Of a DNA stretch of 64,000 bases, positions 12,810 to 29,147 are shown piece after piece. The stretch lies in assembly GCF_007279655.1 (NCBI RefSeq), contig NZ_QKWN01000004.1:310001-374000 (forward strand), read 5' to 3'. The notes below the pieces were generated by a model. The model had not been told where the DNA came from, made no database searches, and saw only the letters and a list, made by a program, of their open reading frames with translations. Both the position numbers and the translations under genes were made by a program. Origin of the DNA: Robertkochia solimangrovi. Its GTDB lineage: Bacteria > Bacteroidota > Bacteroidia > Flavobacteriales > Flavobacteriaceae. The stretch's first letter is position 1. Every line of letters begins with the position of its first letter.

Positions 12810-13664
12810 TCATCGATCCCCTGTATGGTACAATAACAGCCCGTCAATAGGCCTTCTTATAAAATTACCACAGGTCATACCATATTCATCTCTGAGCACT
12901 TCAATAATGGCTTTACGGGCGTAATATGCAATAGAACCCACGAAATGAACCGGCACCTGCTCCGCTTCTTTGGCAAATAAGTGAAGATGTGTATCTGCAA
13001 AGGAACGGATTGAATCCTTGAGAATTCCCTGCAGGAATTCATCCTCCGGATGTTCAAATATAAACCGGGCATAGGTTGCCAGAAAAGCATTAGGATGTGA
13101 CTTTTTATACAGCCGTTTTTTCACTTTACCGGGATCGACATCATAGGCCAATTCAAAAGCGTCGGCCAGATACTGCGGCATTTGTTTAAAATAATAGGCA
13201 CGCAACAGCCGTTTTCCCAGATTATTTCCACTGGCATCATCCATTAGGGTATAGCCCATGGAAGGCATTCTGGTCTCGATGTTCTTTCCATCGAAATAAC
13301 AACAATTAGAACCGGTTCCCAAAATCGAAACAATACCGGGACTGGTCGTACAGCTATAAACAGCGGCATCCAGATCTTCACGTACCCTGATAACTTCTGC
13401 ATTTTCAAAAAAGTTATCAAAGACTTTTTTCAATACATTCTGATATTTTTCGAGTCCGCAACCCGCTCCATAAAAATAAACCTGACCGATCAGGTTTTTG
13501 TATTCCATCAAAAGCGGAGCCCCGGAAAGTATTTCCAGGGCCATTTTTTTTGTTACAAGTGAGGGATTTATACCAGTTGTTCTACATTTCTGAATATCAT
13601 TACCGTCTTCACCGGTAATGATCCAGTCACACTTGGTAGACCCGCCGTCTGCAATAAGGATCAT
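12810..13664 (-). CDS. BadF/BcrA-type N-acetylglucosamine kinase-like protein
   Basis: 284-residue actin-fold sugar kinase of the BadF/BadG/BcrA/BcrD ATPase family, which includes eukaryotic NAGK. The phosphate-1 motif is DGGSTKCDW (6-14), the catalytic-type Asp lies in DLDAA (Asp99), phosphate-2 is GTGSN (116-120), and DDASGNNLGKRLL (142-154) is typical. It lies 9 bp downstream of the NagB fusion gene and is surely co-transcribed with it, so phosphorylation of GlcNAc (or GlcN) to the 6-phosphate is the best guess; the substrate is inferred from context. Confidence 0.82.
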   Translation of the reverse strand: MILIADGGSTKCDWIITGEDGNDIQKCRTTGINPSLVTKKMALEILSGAPLLMEYKNLIGQVYFYGAGCGLEKYQNVLKKVFDNFFENAEVIRVREDLDAAVYSCTTSPGIVSILGTGSNCCYFDGKNIETRMPSMGYTLMDDASGNNLGKRLLRAYYFKQMPQYLADAFELAYDVDPGKVKKRLYKKSHPNAFLATYARFIFEHPEDEFLQGILKDSIRSFADTHLHLFAKEAEQVPVHFVGSIAYYARKAIIEVLRDEYGMTCGNFIRRPIDGLLLYHTGDR

Positions 13665-13673
13665 AAATTTTTT

Positions 13674-15608
13674 TTAGTAAAAATAGCGTTTAAATGCTTC
13701 GATCGCTGCATAATCTGCTAATCCAAGCTTATGATATCTCGATGCGGTCTCTTTATTCCTTTCTTCAGCTCTGACCCAGAACTCTCTGGAGTCATCACCC
13801 TGAAACATCACACCGTCTTTTTGCGACTGATGGAAGAATATAGCTCTTCGCTTACGCAAAACCTGATCCGGGCTCATCGGTACCGCCATTTCGATCTCAT
13901 GCATATCCCATTCATGCCATGCACCGCGATACAGCCAAACCCAGCAATCTTTCATAAAATCTTCATGCTTTAAAATTTCAAGGGCTTTAAAAAGGGCATC
14001 AAGACAAACCTTATGGGTTCCATGCGGATCTGCCAGATCTCCGGCAGCATAGATCTGGTGTGGTTTGATCTCTCTAATCACGTCACACATAATAGCGACA
14101 TCATCATCACTTAACGGACGTTTCTTGATGGCACCGGTCTCATAGAATGGCAGATTAAGAAAATGTGCCTGAGAATCAGGAATCCCTACATAGCGGGTTG
14201 CACCCAGCGATTCCTTTTGACGGATGAGTCCTTTCAATTGCCTTACTTCGGGAGCATCGATATTGAACTCTTCGTTATTTCTGATATGATGAATGATCTT
14301 TTTATACAATTGATCTTCGGGATCCAAAGCAGCTGCTACTTCTGCAAACTTCATCGCTTCATGGTTGGATACCGCAATATTTCCTGAGGTCTGATAAGCG
14401 ATATGTACTTCATGTCCCTGCTCCACCAGTCGATCGAACGTACCTCCCATTGAGATCACATCATCATCAGGGTGCGGACTAAAAATTATCACACGTTTTT
14501 TAGCCGGGTTGGATCTTTCCGGACGTTTGGTATCATCGGAATCAGGTTTCCCTCCGGGCCAACCGGTAATGGTATGCTGCAATACATTGAACATTTTGAT
14601 GTTCAGATCATAAGAAGACCCTTCCAGCGTAAGCAGACTTTCCATTCCGTTATCATTATAATCCTTATCGGTAAGTCTTAGAATCGATTTTCCGGTATGA
14701 TTACAAAGCCATACCACCGATTTTCTGGTAAGCTCTGAAGTCCATTCACAAGGTCCTACCAACCATGGAGTTTTGATTCGTGTCAATTCGGAAGCAGCAC
14801 CTGAATCCATCACGAAAGTAGTATTATGATGTTCCTGCAAATACGTTGCCGGTACTTTTGAAGAAATTTCACCTTCAACCGCTTCCTTAACGATCTCGGC
14901 CTTATTCTGACCCCAGGCGAGTAAGACCACTCGTTTAGCATCCATAACCGTTCTGATTCCCATCGTGATCGCCTTCTTTGGTACATTTTCCAACCCGAGG
15001 AAAGCCGTGGATGCATCACTACGGGTCAGATGGTCCAGTGTTATCAGACGAGTTCTGGAGTTATAATGGGATCCCGGTTCATTAAAACCGATATGTCCCG
15101 TACGACCGATTCCCAATAATTGAAAATCGAGTCCGCCGAAACTCTTTATTTTCTTTTCATAGTTTACACAGAAATCCAGGATATCATCAGGATCAAGATC
15201 ACCCTTGGGAATATTGATGTTTTTTTCGGGGATATCGATATGATTGAATAGATATTCATGCATGAAGTAATAATAACTCTGTGCATTCTGTTTAGTCATC
15301 GGATAGTATTCATCCAGATTAAAGGTCACGACATTCTTAAAGCTCAACCCCTCTTCCTTATGGAGGCGGATCAATTCTTCATAGACCTTGATCGGAGAAG
15401 AACCTGTCGCAAGTCCGAGCACGCAGGTTTCGTTTCTGGCCTGTTTACTACGGATAAGATCGCCTATTTCCCGGGCGACAATTGCGGATGCATTATCGGA
15501 ATCGTCGTAAACTACATTATGAATCTTTTCAAAACGGGTATTTTCGTAGATCCCGGCTTCCTTGTAGCTAATATCGGTCAGGTTACACAATTGTTCTTCT
15601 GCAATCAT
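13674..15608 (-). CDS. NagB-like deaminase fused to a PIG-L/LmbE deacetylase domain
   Basis: 644 residues in two halves. The N-terminal half (~30-290) is glucosamine-6-phosphate deaminase/isomerase: GLATGSSPIKVYEEL, FNLDEYYPM (Asp99 matching E. coli Asp72) and GIGRTGHIGFNEPGS. In that last motif the E. coli catalytic Asp141 position is Thr170, while His and Glu are kept. The C-terminal half (~370-640) is a PIG-L/LmbE zinc deacetylase with HPDDD at 379-383 and a later DPHGTHK. PIG-L enzymes remove N-acetyl from GlcNAc conjugates, so one chain could deacetylate GlcNAc-6-P and then deaminate the product to fructose-6-P. Such fusions are familiar in Bacteroidota; the sequential activity is inference. 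A kinase gene follows 9 bp downstream. Confidence 0.9.
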   Translation of the reverse strand: MIAEEQLCNLTDISYKEAGIYENTRFEKIHNVVYDDSDNASAIVAREIGDLIRSKQARNETCVLGLATGSSPIKVYEELIRLHKEEGLSFKNVVTFNLDEYYPMTKQNAQSYYYFMHEYLFNHIDIPEKNINIPKGDLDPDDILDFCVNYEKKIKSFGGLDFQLLGIGRTGHIGFNEPGSHYNSRTRLITLDHLTRSDASTAFLGLENVPKKAITMGIRTVMDAKRVVLLAWGQNKAEIVKEAVEGEISSKVPATYLQEHHNTTFVMDSGAASELTRIKTPWLVGPCEWTSELTRKSVVWLCNHTGKSILRLTDKDYNDNGMESLLTLEGSSYDLNIKMFNVLQHTITGWPGGKPDSDDTKRPERSNPAKKRVIIFSPHPDDDVISMGGTFDRLVEQGHEVHIAYQTSGNIAVSNHEAMKFAEVAAALDPEDQLYKKIIHHIRNNEEFNIDAPEVRQLKGLIRQKESLGATRYVGIPDSQAHFLNLPFYETGAIKKRPLSDDDVAIMCDVIREIKPHQIYAAGDLADPHGTHKVCLDALFKALEILKHEDFMKDCWVWLYRGAWHEWDMHEIEMAVPMSPDQVLRKRRAIFFHQSQKDGVMFQGDDSREFWVRAEERNKETASRYHKLGLADYAAIEAFKRYFY

Positions 15609-15740
15609 GATATTGTTATTTAATTGATTAATCTATGTTTATGATTTCACACGATCTCTCAATTGTTGCGCGGGTTTGAAAACCGAGAATAAGTTAAGAA
15701 TTTTTCGCCGATTCCCGTGTATTCTATACGATTTAGGTTT

Positions 15741-15771
15741 AAAAAAAGCAAAGGCAGTTCACCTTTGCTTT
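15741..15771 (-). terminator. Terminator, minus strand (distal of two)
   Basis: Perfect 10-bp stem AAAGCAAAGG / CCTTTGCTTT with a 7-nt loop. On the minus strand it is followed by a run of seven T, so it terminates leftward transcription. It lies about 145 bp beyond the first SusCD terminator. Confidence 0.85.
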
Positions 15772-15915
15772 CTCTATAGGACTATTAATTCCTCACCTCA
15801 ACAATCAATTTTTCAATGTAAAATACTATGGCGTTACTTATTGCTAATTTGCAAATTTCAGCAGGGTATATTTAATTATTTCGACTAATAACATCGCTAA
15901 AAAGCTTAATAACGA
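15772..15915 (-). other. Gap between two tandem leftward terminators
   Basis: This AT-rich stretch holds no convincing gene. It is bounded on both sides by strong leftward terminators, so either the second is a back-up or a short leftward RNA is made here. A TACATTG sequence on the minus strand is only a rough match to a -7 box. The rest of the 15609-15996 gap (15609-15740) should hold the nagB-fusion promoter, which I could not pinpoint. Confidence 0.3.
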
Positions 15916-15943
15916 AAAAGGAGAGGGTTGTCCCTCTCCTTTT
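15916..15943 (-). terminator. Terminator of the susCD operon
   Basis: Perfect 12-bp stem AAAAGGAGAGGG / CCCTCTCCTTTT with loop TTGT, 53 bp past the SusD stop. T-rich on the minus strand after the stem. Confidence 0.9.
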
Positions 15944-15996
15944 ATTAAACTAACTAGAAAACAAAATCAAATTATGGTAAAATCTGACTTCATTAA

Positions 15997-17685
15997 TTAT
16001 TTGGCCCACCATAATTTAGTAGCCTGAGTATCCGCTCCCTGAGCACTCACGGCATCTGCATAGTTGGCGCCATTTCCTGTCTGAACACTGGTTCCATAGC
16101 GCATACGTTGTGGGTATGCACCATTAAGAGTACCTGGTTCAAAGATCATATTATCAGAAACTCCTGCAGCCAGATTCGAAGGATATCCTGTATCCCGAAC
16201 CACCGCCCAAGCTTCAAAACCATCGGTATAATCTGCAAGCCATCTCTGAATGGCGATCTTCTCGAGTTTCTCATCGGTAGATCCTGCAGTAATATCAGCA
16301 AGAGCAGCGCTTGCGATATAAGTGTCGATATCTCCTTGTCCGATCTCCCAAACCTTCATCGCTTCGGCGATACCTTTTTCCATCATCTCCTGTGCATTAT
16401 CAGCACCTAACCCCATAACGGCAGCCTCTGCTCTCAGGAAATAGGCCTCCGCACTGGTCATTACGATCTCTTCGTACATAGGACCTGCGAGTTTTGCCTG
16501 AGTAACCTTATCGTTCGGAGTACTGAACATGGAAAAGTTCGCGTAAGACATAGTTTGAGAATTCAATCGGGTTGGCTGTCCGATATATTGTCCCGGATCA
16601 AGGACTATAGTCACCTCATCAGCAGTACCGGAAGTACTATAACTTGCTCCCTGTTCATCCAGCGTGTTGAGAATAAAGTCAACGCGAGCCTGAAAATTAT
16701 CAGCCGCCTCTCCGGATGCAGGCTTCGTATAGGTAATAGTTCCTCCATCAGCAGGTTTCGCATAGGCTGCAAGACGAGGATCGTTATTATCTCTCAGATA
16801 ATTGATAAGCGTTTCACCCATGGTCCATTTCGAACCAAGTCCGCCGAAATTATGCCAAACATCACCATAACAAGCACTGGTCCATTGAGATATCTCAGTA
16901 TCCTTATCCATCAGGACACTTCCGGTTGACTCATCCAGCAAGTCACCAGCAAGTGCTTCGGAAATAGCCGTAGCTGCGAATCCTGCATCTGAAGCTCCGT
17001 AAGCTCTCAATCCCATTCTGAGTTTCAACGTATTCGCCAAACGTTTCCATTTCTGAAGATCTCCTCCACAATACACATCATTCTCACCGATATCATCGAT
17101 ACCTCCACCGGTTCTTTCTGTATCGCCAATGATCTGCATTGCCTGATCGAGGTTTGCGATCACACTGGTGTAAATATCCTTTTGGGAATCGAATTTAGGT
17201 GTTACAATGCCTTCAACTCCAGCTTCACTAAATGGCACCATCCCGAATACATCGGTATACATCTGGTAATACAGTGATTTGGTAATTAATCCAACTGCAT
17301 ACATATACTGGTTTTCAAACTCCCCACCAACATCCGTTAGCGTAAGGAAGTTATCGATCTTACCGAAAGCTCCGGCAAGCCAATCCCAGGTTGCATCGGT
17401 ATAGGCAGCATCATATGAATATCCGAGTCCGTCACTCCACCAGGAACCATGATGTCCAAAAGTAAAGTGTCCGGCATATCTGTCTGAATGTATCAGTTGT
17501 GCTCTCCAATACGGATATCGGTCAGGTCCGAACAGCAGGAACTGTGGTTCCGTAAGGAAGTATTTTGCACTGACCTCCTCCGGTAAGAATCCGTTCGGGT
17601 CCTGGTTGATATCGTCGAATCCGGAGGTACAGGCTACCAGTCCGAAAAACGCGAGTGTTCCTAATTTATATAGCTGTCTTTTCAT
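15997..17685 (-). CDS. SusD/RagB-family nutrient-binding lipoprotein (SusD-like 2 type)
   Basis: 562-residue surface lipoprotein that forms the lid on the SusC channel and binds its ligand. The signal MKRQLYKLGTLAFFGLVAC ends in a lipobox, followed by FDDINQDPNGFLPEE, the typical opening of the SusD-like 2 subgroup. A TPR-like helical body is expected, and the motif AYFLRAEAAVMG occurs near residue 420. It starts 6 bp after the SusC stop and is followed by a strong terminator. Neighbouring GH20 and glycosylasparaginase genes suggest a GlcNAc-containing ligand (inference). Confidence 0.92.
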   Translation of the reverse strand: MKRQLYKLGTLAFFGLVACTSGFDDINQDPNGFLPEEVSAKYFLTEPQFLLFGPDRYPYWRAQLIHSDRYAGHFTFGHHGSWWSDGLGYSYDAAYTDATWDWLAGAFGKIDNFLTLTDVGGEFENQYMYAVGLITKSLYYQMYTDVFGMVPFSEAGVEGIVTPKFDSQKDIYTSVIANLDQAMQIIGDTERTGGGIDDIGENDVYCGGDLQKWKRLANTLKLRMGLRAYGASDAGFAATAISEALAGDLLDESTGSVLMDKDTEISQWTSACYGDVWHNFGGLGSKWTMGETLINYLRDNNDPRLAAYAKPADGGTITYTKPASGEAADNFQARVDFILNTLDEQGASYSTSGTADEVTIVLDPGQYIGQPTRLNSQTMSYANFSMFSTPNDKVTQAKLAGPMYEEIVMTSAEAYFLRAEAAVMGLGADNAQEMMEKGIAEAMKVWEIGQGDIDTYIASAALADITAGSTDEKLEKIAIQRWLADYTDGFEAWAVVRDTGYPSNLAAGVSDNMIFEPGTLNGAYPQRMRYGTSVQTGNGANYADAVSAQGADTQATKLWWAK

Positions 17686-17691
17686 ACTTTT

Positions 17692-20600
17692 TTAGAATTT
17701 AAGATTAAGGTTGAACCCGAGACTTCTTGTAGTAGGAAGGTTATTATATAACACCCCTTGTGCGAAGTTACTGGTCGAATAACTCGACTCAGGATCGAAA
17801 TTATCGATCTCTTTGTAGAAGAAGAACAGGTTTCTTCCGATAAGACTGATAGAAGCACTGTTTATAAAAGTATTATCCAACAGTTTAGAAGGGAAATTAT
17901 ACGTAAGCGCCACCTCTCTCATTCTCACATTGGTCTGATCATATACGTAGTTGGAAGAGATTCCACTTACCGACCCCCAATATTGCTGAGCGGTGATATT
18001 GCTGGTATTTGCAACATATCCTCCAGCACCATCTTCGATAAATCCATCAACTACTACACCATCTTCGCGATATTCAAGTGTTCTTGTAGATACACCTGCG
18101 CCATCAAGTGAAGCATCGGTTCCCGAATAAATTTCTCCACCCAGTCTGAAATCCACAAGGAATCTCAATCCAAGGTTTCCAAACTTGAGGTTATTGGTCA
18201 GACCTCCGGTCATATCCGGCTGATAATTTCCAAGTTTTACAAGTTCATCAGTTCCCTGAGGCCTTCCATTTGCATCAAGCAACAAAGCTCCCGCATTTGG
18301 TCCTTCAGGCACACGCTTATAATCTCTACCCCAGATCTCGCCGAATTCACCACCAACGGTAGCCTGAACTGCGATATTTCCTCCATTACTTGATGAGAAG
18401 GTAAAACTTTCCAGATCATCGATAAGTTCTTCCAGTTTGTTAGTGTTCTTAGCGATGTTTGCAGAAACTTCCCATTCGAATTTATCCGTTTTGACCGGTG
18501 TACCTCCGATGAGCAATTCAAAACCTTTGTTGGTCATTCTACCCACATTCTCTCTAAAGAAATTATACCCGGTTGATTCCGGAACCGGTACATCGAAAAT
18601 CAGATCTTCCGATTCAATACTATAGTAAGAAGCATCGAAGAAAAGTCTGTCCTGAAGCATACGGAACTCTACACCAAATTCAAGTGAAGTAACTGATTCC
18701 GGTTTAAGATCTTCATTAGCCTTTACAGATCTTCTTCCGATCTGCGTAAGCCCTAGATATCCGTTTGAAGCCAGTTCAAAAGTATCGTATAACTGGTATA
18801 CGCCGGTATCATTACCTACCTGAGCCCAGCTCGCTCTTAATTTAAGGAAGTTAAACAATCCATCCTGAAAATCAAAGGCAGTAGATGGAATAAAACTCAC
18901 ACTTGCAGATGGATAGAAGTAGGAACGATTATCCGGTGAAAGTGTAGAAGACCAGTCATTTCTTCCGGTAAAGTCCAGATACAGGTAATTATCATAGGCA
19001 AATGAAAAGGCTCCGTAAAGAGAGTTCACCTTTTTCTCCTGTAGCGGAGTATAGGTCTGCATCGGATCAACCAGGTTCGATACCGTTACCCGTGTAGGGA
19101 TCTTAAATCCTCTACCATTGATTCCGATTTGTTTATACGTACGATAGGAATGATTTCCACCAAAACTCGCATTAAGATTAAGTTTTTCTGTAATGTTCTT
19201 ATTTGCGGTTAAAAGGAAATCAACGTTAGTCTCACCAAAAGTATTCTCGGTGATACTCAATGCTCCCTGTGGCTGATAGTGATGGCCATATTGATTTGCA
19301 GAATACGTGTCATGCTTCACCTGGTCAGTACCTACTCGAACGAAGGCAGACAACCAGTCGGTAAATGCATAATCAACCTTGGCAAAACCATTAACTCTGT
19401 GACGTGAATCTTCGTTCACATCATGTAATTGCATCCAATACGGGTTACCACCTGTTGAATTCCAACTGATGGAAGCATAAGGATTGTCAGGATTAACAGG
19501 ATTCTCAAGATCCTGATAACGCTTAAGGTCATCTAACATCACATTTCTTGGCATTGTATACACCCATGCCAAAACTCCTTCAGTACCCTGAAGTGCTCTG
19601 TTAGTAGCATCCTGAGTAAAATAGGTAACTTTTGCATCAAGAGTCAGCTTATCTGTTAGTTTAGAATAGCCTCTCAGGTTAAAGTTATGTCGTTTGATAT
19701 CTGAATTAGGAAGTATAGAACTCGCATCTGTATTCGTATAGGAAAACAATACATTCGATTTCTCATCACCTCCCGTAAGGGTGATCGCATTGGTAAAAGT
19801 GGTTCCTGTCTTAAAGAAATCTTTTACGTTATCCGGCTGTGCAACATAAGGTCTGTTCTCACCGGTATAATAGAACTGTGAAGATCCGTCAAAAGCAGGA
19901 CCCCATGAATTTGCAGACTTAACCGCATTAACCTGCTCTTCAAATGAACCAGCTGTAGGTATCTGAGGAAAGTTACCTTCACTACCTCTTCCGTATTCAT
20001 TCTGATATTCCGGAAGCAGCAATGGATTTTCAAAAGTAGCCGATGAGGAGATCGCTACTCCTAATCCTCTGCCTGAAGTACCCTTCTTGGTAGTGATAAG
20101 AATCACCCCGTTACTCGCACGTGAACCATAAAGCGCTGCTGCGTTAGGCCCTTTAAGAACGGTCATTGTTTCTATATCTTCAGGGTTGATATCGGAAATA
20201 CCGGTACCATAATCTGCACGGCTATATTCCGAAGTGCTGCTACCAGCAGCAGAACCTACCCCTGAGTTATCGATCGGAATTCCATCTACCACATATAATG
20301 GCTGGTTATTCCCAGTGATAGAGTTATTACCCCTGATCACAACTCTGGAACCTCCACCGGGTCCTGATGTTGATTGCGTAATTACCACACCGGCAACCTT
20401 ACCGGAGAGGGAATTAACAACGTTAGGATCCTTAGTGGTGTTCAGATCTTCATTATTAAGTTCGGTCACTGCGTAACCCAGTGCCTTTTTCTCCCTCGAA
20501 ACCCCGAGGGCTGTTACAACAACTTCTCCCAGTTGCTCCGCATCCTCGGTCAAAGACACATTGATCACCGACTGACTTCCTACGGTAACGGACTTATCTG

Positions 20601-20838
20601 CGAATCCCAGATAAGAGAATTCCAAAACAGCATCTCCGGAAACCTCGATGGAGTACTTTCCGTCAAAATCAGTGGTAGCCCCCACGGTGGTGCCCTGAAC
20701 TACAACGCTCACTCCGGGGAGTGGCATTCCGTCACCTGCCGAGGTAACAGTCCCCGACACCGTACGGTTTTGCGCGAATACTGCCGTTGAAAGCAAAGCA
20801 AACGCACATAGTAAAAAAGATTGTAAATTCTTACACAT
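17692..20838 (-). CDS. SusC/RagA-family TonB-linked outer-membrane transporter
   Basis: 1048-residue TonB-dependent transporter. The signal peptide ends at AVFAQ (~23). A CarboxypepD_reg-like domain (~24-105) opens RTVSGTVTSAGDGMPLPGV, followed by the GEVVVTALG segment and a plug domain with LYVVDGIPIDNSGV, characteristic of SusC. The remainder is the 22-strand barrel, ending SLGFNLNLKF. It imports oligosaccharides with its SusD partner encoded 6 bp downstream. A 31-bp element shared with the CBM9-led operon lies about 100 bp before the start. Confidence 0.95.
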   Translation of the reverse strand: MCKNLQSFLLCAFALLSTAVFAQNRTVSGTVTSAGDGMPLPGVSVVVQGTTVGATTDFDGKYSIEVSGDAVLEFSYLGFADKSVTVGSQSVINVSLTEDAEQLGEVVVTALGVSREKKALGYAVTELNNEDLNTTKDPNVVNSLSGKVAGVVITQSTSGPGGGSRVVIRGNNSITGNNQPLYVVDGIPIDNSGVGSAAGSSTSEYSRADYGTGISDINPEDIETMTVLKGPNAAALYGSRASNGVILITTKKGTSGRGLGVAISSSATFENPLLLPEYQNEYGRGSEGNFPQIPTAGSFEEQVNAVKSANSWGPAFDGSSQFYYTGENRPYVAQPDNVKDFFKTGTTFTNAITLTGGDEKSNVLFSYTNTDASSILPNSDIKRHNFNLRGYSKLTDKLTLDAKVTYFTQDATNRALQGTEGVLAWVYTMPRNVMLDDLKRYQDLENPVNPDNPYASISWNSTGGNPYWMQLHDVNEDSRHRVNGFAKVDYAFTDWLSAFVRVGTDQVKHDTYSANQYGHHYQPQGALSITENTFGETNVDFLLTANKNITEKLNLNASFGGNHSYRTYKQIGINGRGFKIPTRVTVSNLVDPMQTYTPLQEKKVNSLYGAFSFAYDNYLYLDFTGRNDWSSTLSPDNRSYFYPSASVSFIPSTAFDFQDGLFNFLKLRASWAQVGNDTGVYQLYDTFELASNGYLGLTQIGRRSVKANEDLKPESVTSLEFGVEFRMLQDRLFFDASYYSIESEDLIFDVPVPESTGYNFFRENVGRMTNKGFELLIGGTPVKTDKFEWEVSANIAKNTNKLEELIDDLESFTFSSSNGGNIAVQATVGGEFGEIWGRDYKRVPEGPNAGALLLDANGRPQGTDELVKLGNYQPDMTGGLTNNLKFGNLGLRFLVDFRLGGEIYSGTDASLDGAGVSTRTLEYREDGVVVDGFIEDGAGGYVANTSNITAQQYWGSVSGISSNYVYDQTNVRMREVALTYNFPSKLLDNTFINSASISLIGRNLFFFYKEIDNFDPESSYSTSNFAQGVLYNNLPTTRSLGFNLNLKF

Positions 20839-20924
20839 ACATTTTTGAATTTAAGTTAGCTTAGTTAATATTCGTTTTCCGAATTAATTCATTGATTAAA
20901 TGTTGCAATAATGTTAAGTCTTTG

Positions 20925-20955
20925 AAAAGTTTTTCGACCAACAACGGCAATGAAA
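20925..20955 (-). promoter_or_regulatory. 31-bp shared upstream element, susC copy
   Basis: Read on the minus strand: TTTCA, two variable bases, GC, one variable base, the core GTTGTTGGTC, one variable base, AAAAA, then a T-rich tail. It matches the copy at 27264-27294 in 25 of 31 positions by hand alignment, and the 10-bp core is identical. The core lies ~98 bp before the susC ATG, a distance consistent with an activator site or extended promoter. I saw the core nowhere else in the window. Confidence 0.6.
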
Positions 20956-21299
20956 CTCCAAATAACTTTACGCAAACGTTATAGTATTTTCTAAAATTAT
21001 CTTAAAAAATGGTCTGAACCGATGAAAACGCAAGGTCTCACACGTCACCACACCCCCGAAATACCCTTAAAAACAAAGAATTACGGAGCCAAACATCAAA
21101 TCCCGGAACTTTCAATACAAAATCAGGAGTTCACCAAATCAGAATTTCTCCGAACGACATATTTCGAGCGATGAATGCAACTAAAGAATCACGCTGTATT
21201 CAGACACAAAAAATCCCGCTCTCAAAAGAAAACAGGATCTTGAATACTTGTAAATTTAACAATGGTAAGAAACCGGAGACACCCCTTTTCAGGGATCTT
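20956..21299 (-). other. Gap between susC control element and GH20 stop
   Basis: No gene supported. A plausible leftward terminator for the GH20 operon sits at 21207-21238 (see separate entry). A 50-codon rightward frame at 21022-21174 looks like chance. Nothing else recognised. Confidence 0.4.
21207..21238 (-). terminator. Possible terminator of the GH20 operon
   Basis: On the minus strand ATCCTG pairs with CGGGAT (one G-T pair) across a 14-nt loop and is followed by TTTTTTG. It lies ~60 bp past the GH20 stop. The short stem and large loop keep confidence moderate. Confidence 0.5.
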
Positions 21300-23855
21300 T
21301 TAATTTAAAAATCTCCTGGTTTTATCAGGTGAGATTGACAATCCTCCCCTGCCTTCCTGATTGAATGCCCTGATAATAACTTCATCGGATACAGGCACAG
21401 GACCTGAATAGACCTTACTGGACGCATCCGGTAAACTTCCATCAGTTGTATAGCGAATTATCAGTCCGGGAATATCGATATTTGCAAACAGCGTATCATT
21501 AACAACCTTTGCTCCCGGTATCGGTATACGATAATGATATCCACCGTTTATCGTATCAAGTCCCGGAAGTTCACGTAATCCAAGTCGATTAACATATTCA
21601 TTCCAGGCCGCCTCATAGGTATCTGTGCCACTATTCCATTCAGGTGCTTCACTCCAGGCGCGTTCTGCAAGACCCACTAATTTTGGAACCATCATATATT
21701 CCATTCGTTCGGGAGACTTTACGGTTTCTGCCCAAAGTTGACCTTGAATTCCCATAATATTATTTTTACCAGATGCAGTAAGGCGTTCTTTATTCACGAG
21801 TTCGGAAGCTGGTATCGGCCTTCCGTTCACGTCCTCCTTCAGATCGTCATAGATATCAAAGGGTTTAAAACGAAAAGGTTCCTCCTCCGAGACAAAACCG
21901 CCCCAGTAAAAACCTGGCTCTCTGGAATCTTTACTATATGCCATATCAAAGTATAGATGGGTCACATTGCTCATAACCACCTTGTACCCTGCATTGGCAA
22001 GCTTATAGGCTAACTCTTCACCGCCACCACCATAGATACTGTTCCAGGCATACAACCTCAGATCATCTTTAACAAATTCGGTATTCACTATTTTTAACTC
22101 TCGTCCATCAGGAAGTTCCTCTATCGTGAGCCCGACCTCTTCCCATCCGGCAGCATGAAGTCCTCGTTCTTTTAAAATTTCTGAAAACCTGCGAAGGAAA
22201 TAAATCTTCACCTGTTCCCTTGAAAAATGACCACCTTCATCTAATGCCGCACATTTTTCTGACGCTTCCCAAACACCAAACGGAACTTCATCTCCCCCTG
22301 TATGCACCGTATTTAGTGGAAGTCCGGCAATTTCATGCATGTTTTTCAATTCATCAACAACCTTTGCCAGAAAGGTATAAGTGCTCTCGACACACGGACT
22401 TACCACATTGTCGTGGTAATTCTGAACCGACCTGTATACAGAATGATCTTCCGGATCATGTAAAAGGTATTCCTTAGCTTTGAGTGTATCTCCTTTCGAA
22501 AGGTAATAATTCTCACGGGCTTTCATGGCAACGATCGCTGCTCTTGCATGACCCGGCATATCGATCTCCGGAATCACCTCTATTTTACGCTCCCGAGCAT
22601 AGCGGAGAATCTCTATATAATCTTCCTTGGAATAAAACCCACTTCCGGATTCGCTTTCAGCTGAACCATATTGATGATGCAATCCATCAAGTTCATTCCG
22701 TGTATGAATGCGTTTCCCTCCGACAGCAGTAAGTTCCGGAAGGCCACTAATCTCAACCCTCCATCCCTCATCATCCGTCAAATGGAAATGAAACTTATTC
22801 AGCTTGTAGCGTGCCATCACATCCAGCAATTTCATCACGGCTTCCTTAGACTGGAAATTACGTGCTACATCAAGGTGTAATCCACGATATGAAAATCTGG
22901 GCATATCAATGATATCCACCCCCTCTGCCGTAGCCATTCCTCTGTTGAATTTCAACACCGACAATAAGGATTGTAACCCGTAAAAAGCACCTTTCCCGGT
23001 GACTGCTGTTAATCGAATTCCATCTTCTCCTGTATGTAACGTATAAGATTCACCGACACCAGGAGATGAAGATATATTCTCACTTAACCCCAGAAAGATA
23101 TCTGCTAAATCCGCAGAGTCTGCAAAAGCTACCTTGATTGAATCTCTGTAGACCGATTCGATTTGTTCTTTAAGGAATAATATTTCCTCTTTGAATTCCG
23201 GCGCCGAAAAAAGTTTTAAGGAACCCTGCCTTTGAAAAAACTGACCGTTTCTTTTCTCAGAAAATGGTTTAGGCGTCACCAGACCGATCTCAGATTCCTT
23301 CAATCTATGTACCCGGGTATTCTTTTGATAGATGGATTCTGCAGTTGGAACCTCCGTAAAATCTTTTGCATTACGTTTCATCATTTCAAGATTCGTAGCC
23401 ACCCTGACCGAAACTTCCGGAGTCAAAGGATGTGCATCATCTCTATCGAGTATGAAGTAGAATCCTGAAGGAGCATCGGTATCCTTGATCACCCAGCTAG
23501 CTGCAACCACAGGAATCTTCAAAGTATCACCGGGAGCAATTGGAGTATACGTGTCTGCAGGACTGATCCTATAAAAATCACCGGCAACATTCTGGATGGT
23601 GACACTTCCTGACATAGCGGTCGTATCTATAAATCGACATGCTGAATAATTCAAAAACAACTCCCAATTATCCCGGAGTGGTTCATCATTGCGATTTATT
23701 ACATCCAGCCTCGCCTGAAATGCATTTTTATCATTCAGGTTATTGGCCAAAAGTTGCCAGCTGACCTCCAGGTCAGACTGCCTTCCCTCTTCCTTCGGTT
23801 TGCAACAAACCGAAAGTAGAAGAACCATACAAATAATTGAAAATCTGAGTCTCAT
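21300..23855 (-). CDS. GH20 beta-N-acetylhexosaminidase lipoprotein
   Basis: Removes terminal beta-linked GlcNAc or GalNAc from glycans by substrate-assisted catalysis. 851 residues with lipoprotein signal MRLRFSIICMVLLLSVCC. Domains in order: chitobiase-type N-terminal beta domain (~25-160), GH20b (~170-310), GH20 barrel (~320-750) with HTGGDEVPFGVWE carrying the catalytic Asp-Glu pair, and a C-terminal Fn3-like segment (TTDGSLPDASSKVYSGPV). It is the last gene of the CBM9-GHL10-asparaginase-GH20 operon, 100 bp after the asparaginase, and sits just before susC. Anchored outside or in the periplasm. Confidence 0.94.
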   Translation of the reverse strand: MRLRFSIICMVLLLSVCCKPKEEGRQSDLEVSWQLLANNLNDKNAFQARLDVINRNDEPLRDNWELFLNYSACRFIDTTAMSGSVTIQNVAGDFYRISPADTYTPIAPGDTLKIPVVAASWVIKDTDAPSGFYFILDRDDAHPLTPEVSVRVATNLEMMKRNAKDFTEVPTAESIYQKNTRVHRLKESEIGLVTPKPFSEKRNGQFFQRQGSLKLFSAPEFKEEILFLKEQIESVYRDSIKVAFADSADLADIFLGLSENISSSPGVGESYTLHTGEDGIRLTAVTGKGAFYGLQSLLSVLKFNRGMATAEGVDIIDMPRFSYRGLHLDVARNFQSKEAVMKLLDVMARYKLNKFHFHLTDDEGWRVEISGLPELTAVGGKRIHTRNELDGLHHQYGSAESESGSGFYSKEDYIEILRYARERKIEVIPEIDMPGHARAAIVAMKARENYYLSKGDTLKAKEYLLHDPEDHSVYRSVQNYHDNVVSPCVESTYTFLAKVVDELKNMHEIAGLPLNTVHTGGDEVPFGVWEASEKCAALDEGGHFSREQVKIYFLRRFSEILKERGLHAAGWEEVGLTIEELPDGRELKIVNTEFVKDDLRLYAWNSIYGGGGEELAYKLANAGYKVVMSNVTHLYFDMAYSKDSREPGFYWGGFVSEEEPFRFKPFDIYDDLKEDVNGRPIPASELVNKERLTASGKNNIMGIQGQLWAETVKSPERMEYMMVPKLVGLAERAWSEAPEWNSGTDTYEAAWNEYVNRLGLRELPGLDTINGGYHYRIPIPGAKVVNDTLFANIDIPGLIIRYTTDGSLPDASSKVYSGPVPVSDEVIIRAFNQEGRGGLSISPDKTRRFLN

Positions 23856-23955
23856 TCTAAGTTTTCTTATCTAAAAAACAGGCATAAAAGTCCTGTATCC
23901 TTCTCCAATGGGAAAAGGATCTGTTACAAAATCCTCAATAAAAGATTATAAATCT

Positions 23956-24945
23956 TTACTGCATCTTGAAACCGGCATCGATCAGACGATTTCCTTCTGT
24001 TTCGTTACAAACCGCATAATTAAATCCAGGTCTCAGACAATAGCTGCCTGTTTCTCCGGATTTACTAAGTGCGATAAAGCCAACCTGCAAATACTCAAGA
24101 TCCGGCAGGTCTTTATAAATATTATGGATCCGTTCAACGATTTCCTCACAAGCTTCCTGTGGAGATTTTCCCTGACGCATCAATTCTACCACCATTGCAC
24201 TTCCGGCTGTTTTTATAATCGCTTCTCCCAAGCCTGTTGCTGCAGCACCCCCTACTTCATTGTCTACAAACAATCCCGCACCGATCAAAGGTGAATCTCC
24301 CACTCTACCATGCATTTTCCAGGCAGCACCTGAAGTTGTACAAGCTCCTGACAAATTACCCTCCGCATCCAGTGCCAGCATACTGATCGTATCGTGATTT
24401 TCAATATTGATCACGGGTTTATAATCTGCGGTCTCCAGCCATTTCTTATAGGCCTTTTCGGCTTCCGGCGTTAAAAGGTTCTGAGCTTCAAAACCTGAAT
24501 TCAAGGCAAACTCGCGAGCACCTTCTCCAACAAGCATAACATGTGGTGTATCTTCCATGACCTTTCGAGCTACTGAAACAGGGTGCATGATATCTTGTAG
24601 AAAAGCCACTGATCCGGCATTACTTTTATGATCCATTATACAGGCATCAAGAGTCACGACCCCATCACGATCCGGAAAACCTCCATATCCCACACTCGAC
24701 ACCTTGGGGTCGGCTTCGGTTATACGCACTCCGGCTTCAACTGCATCCAGAGCACTCTTTCCTTCTCCCATCACTTTCCATGCTTCCTCATTGGCCGCCA
24801 GTCCATGATTCCAGGTGGAGATTAATACATTCGCTCCTCTTTTTACATTTACCGGTACCCCGACTCCATTGTCAGCACATGCCTGTAAACTACCAAGAGC
24901 AAGGGTTCCCCACGCTGTGTTCTTTATAAATTTCCTTCTTTCCAT
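23956..24945 (-). CDS. N4-(beta-N-acetylglucosaminyl)-L-asparaginase (glycosylasparaginase)
   Basis: Cleaves the GlcNAc-Asn bond left after N-glycoprotein breakdown. 329 residues of the Ntn-hydrolase family. The autocleavage/nucleophile motif is HDTISMLALD with Thr186 becoming the new N-terminus of the beta chain; later motifs GACTTSGAAWKMHGRVGDSPLIGAG are split by the active-site fold (GRVGDSP, GAG). The N-terminus has a Tat-like MERRKFIKN and then LQAC, which could make it a Tat-exported lipoprotein. It closely resembles the classical flavobacterial enzyme in plan. It lies 21 bp after the GHL10-like gene in the same operon. Confidence 0.93.
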   Translation of the reverse strand: MERRKFIKNTAWGTLALGSLQACADNGVGVPVNVKRGANVLISTWNHGLAANEEAWKVMGEGKSALDAVEAGVRITEADPKVSSVGYGGFPDRDGVVTLDACIMDHKSNAGSVAFLQDIMHPVSVARKVMEDTPHVMLVGEGAREFALNSGFEAQNLLTPEAEKAYKKWLETADYKPVINIENHDTISMLALDAEGNLSGACTTSGAAWKMHGRVGDSPLIGAGLFVDNEVGGAAATGLGEAIIKTAGSAMVVELMRQGKSPQEACEEIVERIHNIYKDLPDLEYLQVGFIALSKSGETGSYCLRPGFNYAVCNETEGNRLIDAGFKMQ

Positions 24946-24966
24946 AACAATGTTTTTTTTGAAGTT

Positions 24967-26085
24967 TTAAAGCTCCATATTTTTTATCACTTCAAGATGC
25001 TCCGGTTTTAATGCGCCTCCGTCAAAGAAAGAAACCCCTTTAGCACCATTGTTTTTTGCTTCTAAAATAGCCTGCTTTAATTCTTCAGGTGTTAGCGAAG
25101 GTACAAAAACACCGGTATGCAATTCCGTATCCTTATCTTTAAGATCCGTCACTCCCTGCTTTGTAGCATAACCGATCCAATCGATCTCTTCGTTATAGAA
25201 ATTATGATAGATCATCGGTAATACCATATCGATATCCCATTTATCCCAACGTTGTCTTACCATGTGATCGGCCATTTCCGGATAAGGAAATACTGCTGCT
25301 GAAAGTTGCTTCCCATTCTCATGTACGATCTTATAAGCATCATTAACGACCGCTCTGATCTGATTCAGACGGAACTGTTTCCATTCAATATCCAATTCAG
25401 GATGCTCCATTTCTCTTGGATTCTTATGATGTAATTTCTCGAAGGTATCCACACAAACATCACAATAACAAAAATCGAACTCAGGAAGTTCAACATTCTG
25501 TTCCAGATCATACTTCGGAAGTAGACCAATCGGAAGGAATATATCACAAAAACGAATGTAATCGAGATGAACCGTACTGATCCCTTCAACTTTCGACAAA
25601 CCTTCAACAAGAGAAAGCACATGTTCTCTGGACTCTTTTCGGGTAGGACATAGCCACTGATAATAATCTACATAAGGCCTTGTATCAAAACATGATTTCC
25701 CGTCTCTGCTTACAGTATACCAATCTGGATGCTGTAAAGCAACAGAATCCCCAGGCCTGTTCATCGCCATGATCCATGCATGCACCTCCAATCCTTCCGC
25801 TTTCGCAAGAGGTGTTATGTGAGCCAGCAATTCCGGATCGGTATTCGTATTGATCAACACCGCTTCGATCCCACTGGCTGCATATTTCTTAAACTCCGCA
25901 GTATAGTCCTCATCGGTCTTTTCCTTGTTAGCTCCGGTCCATACCCAAAATTTAAAGGAGTCATTCTCTTCAACAGAAATGTCTTCTGCCATCGATGGTT
26001 CTGAGGTTTCCTGATTCTGTTTACATGCCACTGTCATCAACGACACCAGTACTAGTAGTTTGAGGTAATTCTTCATATTATTCAT
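24967..26085 (-). CDS. GHL10-like putative glycoside hydrolase lipoprotein
   Basis: 372 residues from the ATG at 26085, whose ATGA overlaps the stop of the preceding CBM9-like gene, so translation is probably coupled. A frame extension further upstream is unlikely. The lipoprotein signal ends LMTVAC. The body looks like a TIM barrel of the DUF187/GHL10 group: ILINTN-type strand AVLINTNTDP, VHLDYIRFCD (the family HLDYIR motif), DMVLPMIYHNFY and GVSFFDGG. Enzymes related to it cleave modified GlcNAc/MurNAc or other glycans, but specificity here is unknown. The Cys-rich FCYCDVC stretch (~190) is noteworthy and might bind a metal. Confidence 0.8.
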   Translation of the reverse strand: MNNMKNYLKLLVLVSLMTVACKQNQETSEPSMAEDISVEENDSFKFWVWTGANKEKTDEDYTAEFKKYAASGIEAVLINTNTDPELLAHITPLAKAEGLEVHAWIMAMNRPGDSVALQHPDWYTVSRDGKSCFDTRPYVDYYQWLCPTRKESREHVLSLVEGLSKVEGISTVHLDYIRFCDIFLPIGLLPKYDLEQNVELPEFDFCYCDVCVDTFEKLHHKNPREMEHPELDIEWKQFRLNQIRAVVNDAYKIVHENGKQLSAAVFPYPEMADHMVRQRWDKWDIDMVLPMIYHNFYNEEIDWIGYATKQGVTDLKDKDTELHTGVFVPSLTPEELKQAILEAKNNGAKGVSFFDGGALKPEHLEVIKNMEL

Positions 26086-27167
26086 TTGTTTTCGGTATAC
26101 TTTCCATCCTGATCGATGATCATAGTCTTTTGTGAGAACGGACTTTCGACCCACAGGTACCAGCCCGCTTTATGATCCACTACATGAGCCTGCATAGTTT
26201 TTCCTTCTATTGCTATGGTTTCAGGAGTCTCCTGCTGCTTTCCACGATGTAAGCGATGTTGCTTTCTCCATAGTTCATAGAGTTTCCGTTTGAGCACTTC
26301 ATCAACGTCGGGAGTCACATCCTTATCATTTTCCGGATTTTCCGAAAAATAAACATACCCCCAATGCTCAGGTTCATGCATATTGATCACTCCCTGAGGT
26401 GACCAGACCCAGTTATATTCGCGAAGATACTTCCCGTTTTCATCCTTCTTACGGCTATATTTTTTACCATCGATCTCATGATCCCAGTTGACTCTGGAAA
26501 AATTGATCCGGTAAAATCGATCAACCGGAATCTTACCGGTGGGATCCGATTCCAGAAGGGCACTCCATGGCATCGCAACTTCAAGAGTCCAGCCTTTATC
26601 CACATCGCCCGGATCATTGATCGTACCTTGCACCGATACTGCGGTTTTCAAACCTTTTATGTCCCAGTTATCGATAATGGGTCCGCCGGCCCGATAAGGT
26701 TTTACGAGCCACAGATCCCACACCGTATTCAGTGCGTTCATTTCGAACTCCATATAATTATGGGTGTCGCCATCCGGATCGATGAAAATTTCAAAATCAT
26801 TATTGTAAAAGATGATGGTGTCTCGCTGATGTAACGTACCCCACACATGTGGTTCCTGAAGTTCGGCATAGAAATACAGATACTGATCATCCCAGGCCAT
26901 CTTCATACGAGTTTGATATCGGGGAACCTTATCTCCTTCGATATCCGTAAAATCCTTTGTAAAAGGTATAGCATCCCACAAATGCTCCGCCTCACCATCG
27001 ATCTCCACAGGAACACTTAGTTTTGGAGCTATATAAACCTCCGGCATCTGCTGGGCACATAGTTGTAATGTGCCCATGAAGAGCACTAAAAAAACGGCGG
27101 TCGTCATGGCAGATCCGATCGGCATACAACCGGGATTAAAACTTACTATTCTCAACAATTTATTCAT
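26082..27167 (-). CDS. CBM9-like carbohydrate-binding protein, secreted
   Basis: About 361 residues. The core (~40-280) is a CBM9-type beta sandwich (IDGEAEHLWDAIPFTKDF, KMAWDDQYLYFYAELQEPHVWG, NDFEIFIDPDGDTHNYMEFEMNA given here in pieces: NDFEIFIDPDGD, YMEFEMNALNTVWD). A signal peptide ends at LQLCAQ. The frame stays open to an ATG at 27257, but that places the 31-bp control element only 7 bp before the start, whereas it is ~98 bp from susC. I therefore prefer the ATG at 27167 (MNKLLRIVSF), 97 bp from the element; 27125 is also possible. First gene of the operon, overlapping the next by 4 bp. Confidence 0.75.
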   Translation of the reverse strand: MNKLLRIVSFNPGCMPIGSAMTTAVFLVLFMGTLQLCAQQMPEVYIAPKLSVPVEIDGEAEHLWDAIPFTKDFTDIEGDKVPRYQTRMKMAWDDQYLYFYAELQEPHVWGTLHQRDTIIFYNNDFEIFIDPDGDTHNYMEFEMNALNTVWDLWLVKPYRAGGPIIDNWDIKGLKTAVSVQGTINDPGDVDKGWTLEVAMPWSALLESDPTGKIPVDRFYRINFSRVNWDHEIDGKKYSRKKDENGKYLREYNWVWSPQGVINMHEPEHWGYVYFSENPENDKDVTPDVDEVLKRKLYELWRKQHRLHRGKQQETPETIAIEGKTMQAHVVDHKAGWYLWVESPFSQKTMIIDQDGKYTENK

Positions 27168-27263
27168 TCCTACATTTTTCCTGATACGAGACATCGCGGT
27201 TCGCATGTCAGAAATAATATTTGTCAATTTGAAATAAATATTCATATTTTTAGGCAATTCATT

Positions 27264-27294
27264 AATAATTTTTAGACCAACAACAGCTGTGAAA
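27264..27294 (-). promoter_or_regulatory. 31-bp shared upstream element, CBM9-operon copy
   Basis: Same orientation and 25 of 31 bases identical to 20925-20955, including the core GTTGTTGGTC (minus strand, 27275-27284) and the AAAAA that follows. It lies in the 27168-27342 gap between the leftward CBM9 operon and the rightward histidine-kinase gene, so the two-component pair may also be affected. Confidence 0.6.
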
Positions 27295-27342
27295 AGCTAA
27301 ACACCAAAGCTAACCTCACCGCTAAATTAACCAACCACGCTA

Positions 27343-28422
27343 ATGAATTTGTTTGGAAATTCCCTAAAGTACCAGGTGGGCGGAATTTACCGCATCCATT
27401 TCTGGCACCACTTTTTGATGTGGTTGATCTATTTTATTTTCAATACGCTAAGATGGGGAAATTACTATCAGGATTACGTGTATTCTCTGAAAAGTAACCT
27501 TGTCGGATTCCCGATACATATCATCCTTAGCTATTATACGATCTATTTCCTGATGCCGCGTTTTGTATATAAGCGCAAGTTTATAACTTTCAGTGTTTTA
27601 CTGATAGCAGGAATCTTTACCATGGTCTATATAAAATACCTGCTTACCTATGCCCTTATCAATCACAATGTATGGCCTGAAGGCCCGGGTGTCACCTCGA
27701 CCCTAACCCCAAATTATCTCGTAACCATGATGCTGGGTGAGATCTATGTAGTTTCCTTCGTAACTGCCATAAAGATCACTATTGACTGGGCAAGGGAAAA
27801 TAAAAGAGCCAGCTTACTGGAAAAGACGCAAATGGAGACAGAACTCCGCTTTCTTAGAACACAGGTATCACCTCATTTTTTCTTTAATACGCTCAACAAC
27901 ATTTATTCACTGAGTATAGAAAAGTCTGATAAGGCTCCGGAAACCATTTTAAAACTATCAGAGCTGATGCGCTATCTGCTATACGAGACAAAAGACCGTT
28001 ATCAAAGTCTGATTCAGGAGATCATGTGCATTCAGAACTACCTCGATCTGCAACGGATCAGATATGGCGAAATGGTAACCATAAACATGAACATAACCGG
28101 TGATATTGAAGACCGTACCGTTCCTCCCATGTTACTCATAACCTTTATAGAGAACTGTTTTAAGCATGGAGCAGACAAAAGCTTGGGAAGGATCTTCATC
28201 GACATCGATTTCATCATCGATGGAGACTACCTGCATTTCAGAGTTTCCAACACCATGCCACAGGAAACCAACAGTAAACACCGTGTCAATAATTCGGGGG
28301 GTATCGGTATAGAAAATGCAAGGAAAAGACTGGCATTGGGCTACAAACCCGAAGAATACGAATTAAAAAATTACATCGATAACAACAGGTATATCGTGGA
28401 ACTTAAACTCAAAATAACATGA
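27343..28422 (+). CDS. LytS/YehU-type sensor histidine kinase
   Basis: 359-residue membrane kinase. Four hydrophobic segments lie between ~22 and ~150, then a short coiled linker (RENKRASLLEKTQMETELRF in part) and the His_kinase domain with the phospho-acceptor His178 in SPHFFFNTLNNIYSL. The ATPase has an N-box IENCFKHG and a glycine box GGIGIENARKRL. No periplasmic sensor domain of note, so the signal may be in the membrane. It overlaps its response regulator by 4 bp (ATGA) and is divergent from the CBM9-led glycan operon. Confidence 0.93.
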   Translation: MNLFGNSLKYQVGGIYRIHFWHHFLMWLIYFIFNTLRWGNYYQDYVYSLKSNLVGFPIHIILSYYTIYFLMPRFVYKRKFITFSVLLIAGIFTMVYIKYLLTYALINHNVWPEGPGVTSTLTPNYLVTMMLGEIYVVSFVTAIKITIDWARENKRASLLEKTQMETELRFLRTQVSPHFFFNTLNNIYSLSIEKSDKAPETILKLSELMRYLLYETKDRYQSLIQEIMCIQNYLDLQRIRYGEMVTINMNITGDIEDRTVPPMLLITFIENCFKHGADKSLGRIFIDIDFIIDGDYLHFRVSNTMPQETNSKHRVNNSGGIGIENARKRLALGYKPEEYELKNYIDNNRYIVELKLKIT

Positions 28423-29147
28423 AACTAAAGTGCATAATTGTAGATGATGAGCCATTAGCGGTAAATGTGATAAAAAAATACGTATCGGAACTCGGAAAAC
28501 TTGAGTTAGTCGAAACGTTTAACAGCGCGGTAGCCTGTATAAAGTTCCTGGAAGAGAACCATGTTGACATCATTTTTCTGGATATCAATATGCCATTACT
28601 CGACGGACTCAACTTCGTTCAAAGTCTGAATCCGGCAGAACGCCCAATGATTATTCTGACAACTGCTCATGTTGAATATGCCATCAAAGGCTACGAACTC
28701 GATGTACTCGATTACCTGGTCAAACCCATACCCTTCCACCGTTTCGTCATGGCAGTAAACAAAGCCTTCAAACTTGTGGATAATAAAGGGTTAAAGGAAG
28801 AAACATCAGACAAAGATTTCCTTTTCATCAAGGTGGATAAGAAAAAATTGCAAAAGATCTATTTCAGTGAAATCTCTGTGATCGAAAGCCTTAAAGATTA
28901 CATAAAGATTATAACAGACAAAGGAAAGTTCATCGTACATCAGACTTTGAGCAGTTTTACCGACGAACTTCCTTCCGATAAATTTTTAAGAATCCACCGT
29001 TCTTATACGATCTCGATCGACAAGGTCGAAATGATAGAAGGCAACAGTCTTGGCATTAATGGTATGCGGTATACCATCGGAAGAAGTTACCTCAACGATG
29101 TCAAGAAAACAATTCTCGACACCGAGATCAACGAAAACTTTAATTAA
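28419..29147 (+). CDS. LytTR-family response regulator
   Basis: 242 residues: receiver domain (~3-120) with acidic DDE start and phospho-acceptor Asp55 in FLDINMP, then a LytTR DNA-binding domain (~138-238; FLFIKVDKKKLQKIYFSEI, FLRIHRSYTISIDKV). Start codon overlaps the kinase stop. LytTR proteins usually bind paired direct repeats; the 31-bp elements at 20925 and 27264 are the obvious candidate targets, though they do not fit the classic LytTR repeat well. Its 3' end overlaps the convergent AsmA-like gene by 8 bp. Confidence 0.93.
   Translation: MKLKCIIVDDEPLAVNVIKKYVSELGKLELVETFNSAVACIKFLEENHVDIIFLDINMPLLDGLNFVQSLNPAERPMIILTTAHVEYAIKGYELDVLDYLVKPIPFHRFVMAVNKAFKLVDNKGLKEETSDKDFLFIKVDKKKLQKIYFSEISVIESLKDYIKIITDKGKFIVHQTLSSFTDELPSDKFLRIHRSYTISIDKVEMIEGNSLGINGMRYTIGRSYLNDVKKTILDTEINENFN

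Follow-up and report, generated by a model that had tools for sequence, protein, structure and literature searches.

A predicted two-part LytTR-type operator at a probable GlcNAc and N-glycan utilization locus of Flavobacteriaceae

Organization of the Locus

The DNA analyzed here (the window) is a stretch of 64,000 nucleotides from Robertkochia solimangrovi. It contains, on the reverse strand, a CBM9-GHL10-asparaginase-GH20 gene cluster, a susC-susD pair and a gene for a nagB/PIG-L fusion and, on the forward strand, the genes for a histidine kinase and a response regulator (Table 1). Since terminator-like hairpins close the GH20 and the SusD units, the reverse-strand genes were divided into three transcription units. 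The BadF/BadG-type protein encoded next to nagB is a possible candidate for a GlcNAc kinase.

The kinase had originally been called LytS. It does carry the LytS-family His_kinase domain PF06580; however, this was the only match in a Pfam search, which detected neither a separate sensor domain nor the 5TM domain found in LytS, BtsS and YpdA. Its N-terminal membrane region is short, with about 3-4 hydrophobic segments. Strictly, the protein should be called a PF06580 kinase rather than LytS. In the response regulator, the phosphorylation-site aspartate D55 is invariant among 27 aligned regulators, and in a search of solved structures the best hits matched the receiver domain only.

Table 1. Genes, hairpins, predicted operators and promoter boxes in the window.
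Feature	Position	Strand	Details
BadF/BadG-type ATPase	12810..13664	-	Sub-threshold Pfam match; directly after nagB, same strand
nagB/PIG-L fusion (glucosamine-6-phosphate deaminase-like protein)	13674..15608	-	
Predicted operator 3	15877..15916	-	Before nagB/PIG-L; distal half ATTAAGC 15910-15904; proximal half GTTATTAGTCGAAA 15892-15879
Terminator-like hairpin after SusD	15943-15916	-	
SusD-like lipoprotein	15997..17685	-	
SusC/RagA-family transporter	17692..20838	-	
-7-like box, promoter 2	20897..20904	-	AACATTTA; TTTA offset 45
Predicted operator 2	20930..20969	-	Before susC-susD; distal half ATTTGGA 20963-20957; proximal half GTTGTTGGTCGAAA 20945-20932
Terminator-like hairpin after GH20	21241-21210	-	
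GH20 beta-N-acetylhexosaminidase	21300..23855	-	Last gene of unit 1
Asparaginase_2 family protein (glycosylasparaginase or isoaspartyl peptidase)	23956..24945	-	
GHL10-type glycosyl hydrolase-like protein	24967..26154	-	From longest ORF start
CBM9-domain protein	26082..27167	-	First gene of unit 1
-7-like box, promoter 1	27235..27242	-	AATATTTA; TTTA offset 46
Predicted operator 1	27269..27308	-	Before CBM9-GHL10-asparaginase-GH20 operon, divergent from kinase gene; distal half GTTTAGC 27302-27296; proximal half GTTGTTGGTCTAAA 27284-27271; 21-bp register
Histidine kinase	27343..28422	+	PF06580, E 7e-24
Response regulator, receiver and LytTR domains	28419..29147	+	PF00072, PF04397; proposed binder of the sites

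An Element Shared by Two Upstream Regions

The original prediction described a 31-bp element upstream of both CBM9 and susC. Positions 27264-27294 and 20925-20955 indeed agree in 25 of 31 bases on the same strand, which is the best 31-mer match between both upstream regions, and the stated distances of 98 bp to the susC ATG (20838) and of 108 bp to the CBM9 ATG (27167) are correct. None of 2000 dinucleotide shuffles of the two regions reached 25/31 (maximum 24) and the core, GTTGTTGGTCNAAAAA, is found without mismatch only twice in the 4.41-Mb genome, each time within the locus. The pair of elements is therefore real. No third stretch in the window scored at least 20 against the 31-bp element. 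When up to two mismatches were allowed in the core, the genome of R. solimangrovi, which was searched by pattern and not by matrix, yielded 16 hits vs 31 for the reversed pattern. This background level is uninformative and implies that the core is too short for looser scans, for which the two-half-site pattern or a matrix is needed.

Within the family, we compared 38 regions that surround an orthologous regulator gene or a CBM9 gene. In these relatives the core recurred before susC, CBM9, nagB and the gene divergent from the kinase gene, and regions aligned on the core showed a second conserved block upstream (GTTTAGC...GTTGTTGGTC). This degenerate distal half-site lies exactly 21 bp upstream of the proximal one, and the full sites extend over about 27269-27308 and 20930-20969. 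The 31-bp element, although a genuine match, is thus only the promoter-proximal half of a longer two-part site, with a GTTTAGC-like distal half, a proximal half of consensus GTTRTTRGTC(G/T)AAA and a register of 21 bp, corresponding to two helical turns.

The register was examined at sites picked by the proximal core alone. The match of the 10-mer core to its own upstream sequence was best at 21 bp, with 5.18/10 vs a mean of 2.92 (sd 0.56) over 40 offsets, and it also peaked there in both subsets, with 4.87/10 for CBM9/divergent sites and 5.44/10 for the others. For 37 uncurated core hits from the named genomes the highest value was again obtained at 21 bp (4.65 vs 2.85, sd 0.47) and, in all, this register ranked first of 40 offsets in three sets of sites. 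Published LytTR sites consist of two repeats of 9-11 nt with spacers of 11-13 nt (PMC4847170). As the 21-bp register matches this layout, the site appears to be an ordinary LytTR-type operator of which one half had been seen before. The LytTR double repeat, earlier described as not obvious, is present, and the site type itself is not new.

A matrix was trained on 41 sites that had been hand-curated from core hits. With this matrix, a third site, before nagB, reached a score as high as that of the susC site, and the earlier statement that the element was seen nowhere else is wrong. Scores were 48.3 for operator 1, 35.0 for operator 2 and 36.5 for operator 3, or 45.2, 29.6 and 30.7, respectively, with a matrix lacking the own genus. 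Each of the three transcription units is therefore preceded by one site, and the distal half is weak at the susC site. A weak fourth site-like match was noted upstream of susC (21143-21182, minus strand; 14.4, or 15.9 with the matrix lacking the own genus). An additional site is likewise found at loci L132 and L133, where it precedes the susC site by about 350 bp.

Distribution of the Site Across Regulator Clades

Test loci were taken from the named genomes and fetched by regulator alignment. Some species may be represented in both genome sets, but near-identical loci were not found. In the clade of the window regulator (L115-L135), whose loci were all less than 90% identical to the training loci, 36 sites were present in 20 of 21 loci from other genomes, with none in reversed sequence, whereas 0 of 53 loci of distant LytTR regulators scored 18 or higher. 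On a maximum-likelihood tree this clade had a support of 100/99, and the site label required 2 changes vs a mean of 18.7 after shuffling. Clade and sites occurred, among others, in Zhouia, Flagellimonas, Maribacter, Arenibacter, Salegentibacter, Aquimarina, Flavobacterium, Croceitalea and Gelidibacter; Zhouia amylolytica (L115) and Flavobacterium sp. Leaf82 (L126) are members with the clade. Because the loci were fetched through the regulator, part of this conservation reflects shared synteny; some sites are nevertheless found before susC at a distance of 20-56 kb or on a different contig.

A search for the two-half-site pattern in 199 genomes of the family gave 29 hits vs 7 for the reversed pattern. 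With the own genome excluded, the pattern was found in 17 of the 26 genomes that encode a clade regulator and in 3 of the 172 that do not (p = 2e-15). For a pattern of core plus -7 box, these counts were 12 and 3, respectively (p = 7e-10), both p-values being inflated by genome relatedness. Pattern hits in genomes G202 and G109 were discarded as chance matches, as both were under the matrix threshold. These results tie the site to the response regulator, in the same clade and at the same loci, as had been proposed for the adjacent LytTR pair and two operons, except that there are three sites and not two.

The window clade is separate from, and sister to, a second clade (100/99) whose loci have the layout of a chitin locus. 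In this sister clade (L103-L105, L113, L114, L136-L141) susC is mostly divergent from the kinase gene, and nagB and GH20 genes occur at several loci. Of 9 upstream regions on the kinase side, 6 contain two copies of GT(T/C)GT exactly 21 bp apart, and among spacings from 10 to 45 this was the only one that occurred. The predicted operator of the sister clade has the same 21-bp layout with different letters (GTYGTYKRT-type). On the kinase side of L103, L105, L113, L114, L138 and L140, a conserved AT-rich stretch and a ATAGTTTGGC-like box come after the predicted GTYGT-type half-sites.

Exceptions to the association were also encountered. One locus of the window clade, L125, has no site. Conversely, two high-completeness genomes, G034 (locus L109) and G010 (L110), contain strong sites (31.7 and 31.3, and 41.4 and 24.4, respectively) and only sister-clade regulators, with no member of the window clade. 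The sites may therefore be served by another regulator in these genomes; alternatively, the pair has been lost or escaped detection. In G034, kinase and regulator genes are absent between the CBM9 and AsmA genes and both sites are kept; a sister-clade regulator adjoins nagB together with a site-like stretch scoring 17.7, and takeover by the sister regulator is therefore possible.

Sites that persist without the pair in these two genomes favor the view that some other transcription factor, sensing GlcNAc or GlcNAc phosphate, binds them and that the LytTR pair is a mere neighbor. We consider this unlikely. The half-sites are repeated directly, 21 bp apart, and form no palindrome, whereas palindromic sites are expected for ROK, GntR and LacI regulators; the site follows the regulator clade in the counts of both genomes and loci given above; a related 21-bp repeat adjoins the sister clade's own genes; and both exceptional genomes do hold a LytTR regulator that might have taken over. 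Binding by the LytTR pair is thus the preferred reading, in which our confidence is high and is held short of near certainty mainly by G034, G010 and L125.

Genes Following the Sites

Among the first genes listed downstream of sites, GH92 was the most frequent (38, including two longer relatives), followed by susC (21), nagB/PIG-L (15) and CBM9 (11). Less frequent were genes for a sulfatase, a fucosidase, GH125, SSF and MFS transporters, a lactonase, a GMC oxidoreductase and PSCyt/PSD1. In the own genome, two GH92 genes outside the window locus (contig C23) have no site. The joint occurrence of GH92, GH125, GH20, fucosidase and an Asparaginase_2 enzyme suggests that the predicted regulon is directed at glycoprotein N-glycans rather than chitin. 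The earlier reading as a GlcNAc locus appears incomplete, since related genomes also have sites in front of genes for GH92/GH125 mannosidases and fucosidases, which points to the use of N-glycans plus GlcNAc.

An unexpected member was observed at L116, L118, L119 and L086, where a site precedes a large PSCyt1/PSCyt2/PSD1 gene (planctomycete-type cytochrome/DUF1549/DUF1553) just after the regulator gene.

Position Relative to the Promoter

The tetranucleotide TTTA was found at an offset of 45 from the first core base in 51 of 101 distinct sites and at 46 in a further 16, compared with a mean of 3.2 per offset, and the operator ends about 30 bp upstream of a -7-like WAnnTTTA box. The -7 box of Bacteroidota is TAnnTTTG. 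The TTTA offset is consistent with such a box, and the proximal half, just upstream of the -33 box position, fits the position of an activator. A scan for E. coli-type promoters gave no more hits than in shuffled sequences. The alternative CBM9 starts at 27245 and 27257 fall upstream of the -7-like box and are therefore unlikely, which supports the start at 27167.

Located about 100 bp from the start codons, the element would be within reach of a 5' leader and might act as transcribed RNA instead of as a protein-binding DNA site. This is very improbable, given that the TTTA at offset 45 or 46 (67 of 101 sites) would place the start of transcription past the element, that an Rfam search of 15000-30000 returned no family at gathering score and that a 21-bp register suits the helical phasing of DNA. 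Just as improbable is a core promoter part, the -33 box of a housekeeping or ECF sigma factor, for although the element contains TTG and keeps a fixed distance from the -7-like box, this distance is about 35-40 bp, whereas the -33 box of Bacteroidota promoters is about 20 bp from the -7 box, and the core is rare genome-wide and limited to one functional gene group.

At the nagB site there is no clean -7 box at the usual offset. A strong terminator-like hairpin (15742-15772, minus strand; AAAGCAAAGG...CCTTTGCTTTTTTT) was observed between operator 3 and nagB, which a transcript from operator 3 would reach within about 100 nt or less; none was seen in the congeners L106 and L107. It is possibly an attenuator, a short RNA or the mark of a displaced promoter.

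Proposed Model and Comparison With Known Systems

Discussions of glycan-use loci in Bacteroidota usually center on regulators of the hybrid two-component, SusR or ECF-sigma type. In the open literature searched, we found no description of the operator and regulon proposed here, nor of the operators of glycan-locus LytTR regulators in Bacteroidota. According to our model, which we hold to be quite likely, the kinase/LytTR pair activates a GlcNAc/N-glycan regulon through the two-part operator. In response to an inducer, presumably a sugar, the regulator would be phosphorylated by its partner kinase and would then bind the two half-sites from one side of the helix. Bound regulator would activate, rather than repress, the CBM9-GHL10-asparaginase-GH20, susC-susD and nagB-PIG-L units, the last including the gene of the possible GlcNAc kinase. 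Together, these units would serve the uptake and degradation of glycans that contain GlcNAc, probably the N-glycans of glycoproteins. Operator 1 ends 35 bp from the kinase start and may overlap the kinase promoter, which would allow autoregulation of the kinase gene.

The closest parallel in layout is the YpdB operator at E. coli yhjX, with two GGCATTTCAT copies 21 bp apart (PMC4847170). Both systems have two direct half-sites in a 21-bp register and a LytTR regulator with a PF06580-type kinase and, as YpdB activates a transporter gene, so the window system is proposed to activate the susC transporter unit. In contrast, the half-site sequences are unrelated, the half-sites in the window are unequal, the regulons differ, and YpdA has GAF and membrane sensor domains, neither of which was detected in the window kinase. 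AgrA sites of Staphylococcus aureus likewise consist of two direct repeats upstream of a promoter, recognized by a LytTR domain, but differ in sequence, promoter type and biology (PMC4227749).

With regard to biology, CusS/CusR of Flavobacterium johnsoniae is comparable, being a two-component pair in a SusCD/GH20/nagB locus and needed for its expression; without cusS-cusR, the bacterium no longer grows on chitin or produces ChiA, as shown by deletion (PMC5127042). The layout of that locus, with the kinase gene divergent from susC and with nagB and GH20, is shared by the sister-clade loci, CusR being assigned to this clade by layout only. Unlike CusS/CusR, pairs of the window type go with GH92, CBM9, GHL10 and asparaginase genes, and the predicted sister-clade operator differs. 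It is conceivable, though short of probable, that a LytTR-controlled N-glycan regulon (GH92/GH125, GH20, a possible glycosylasparaginase, SusCD and NagB) exists throughout the Flavobacteriaceae, its regulator and the chitin-locus one having diverged after a duplication, with diverged operator letters and the 21-bp register kept, and with the sister regulator serving the operator where the pair was lost.

With consensus, spacing and promoter position defined, the GlcNAc/N-glycan regulon could be predicted in marine and soil Flavobacteriaceae alike. How LytTR domains read DNA could be tested directly on the two sister regulators, whose half-sites differ.

Sites also fell into two classes by the base after GTC, with TCTAAA before CBM9 and GH92 and TCGAAA before susC and nagB, and this distinction was kept across genera.
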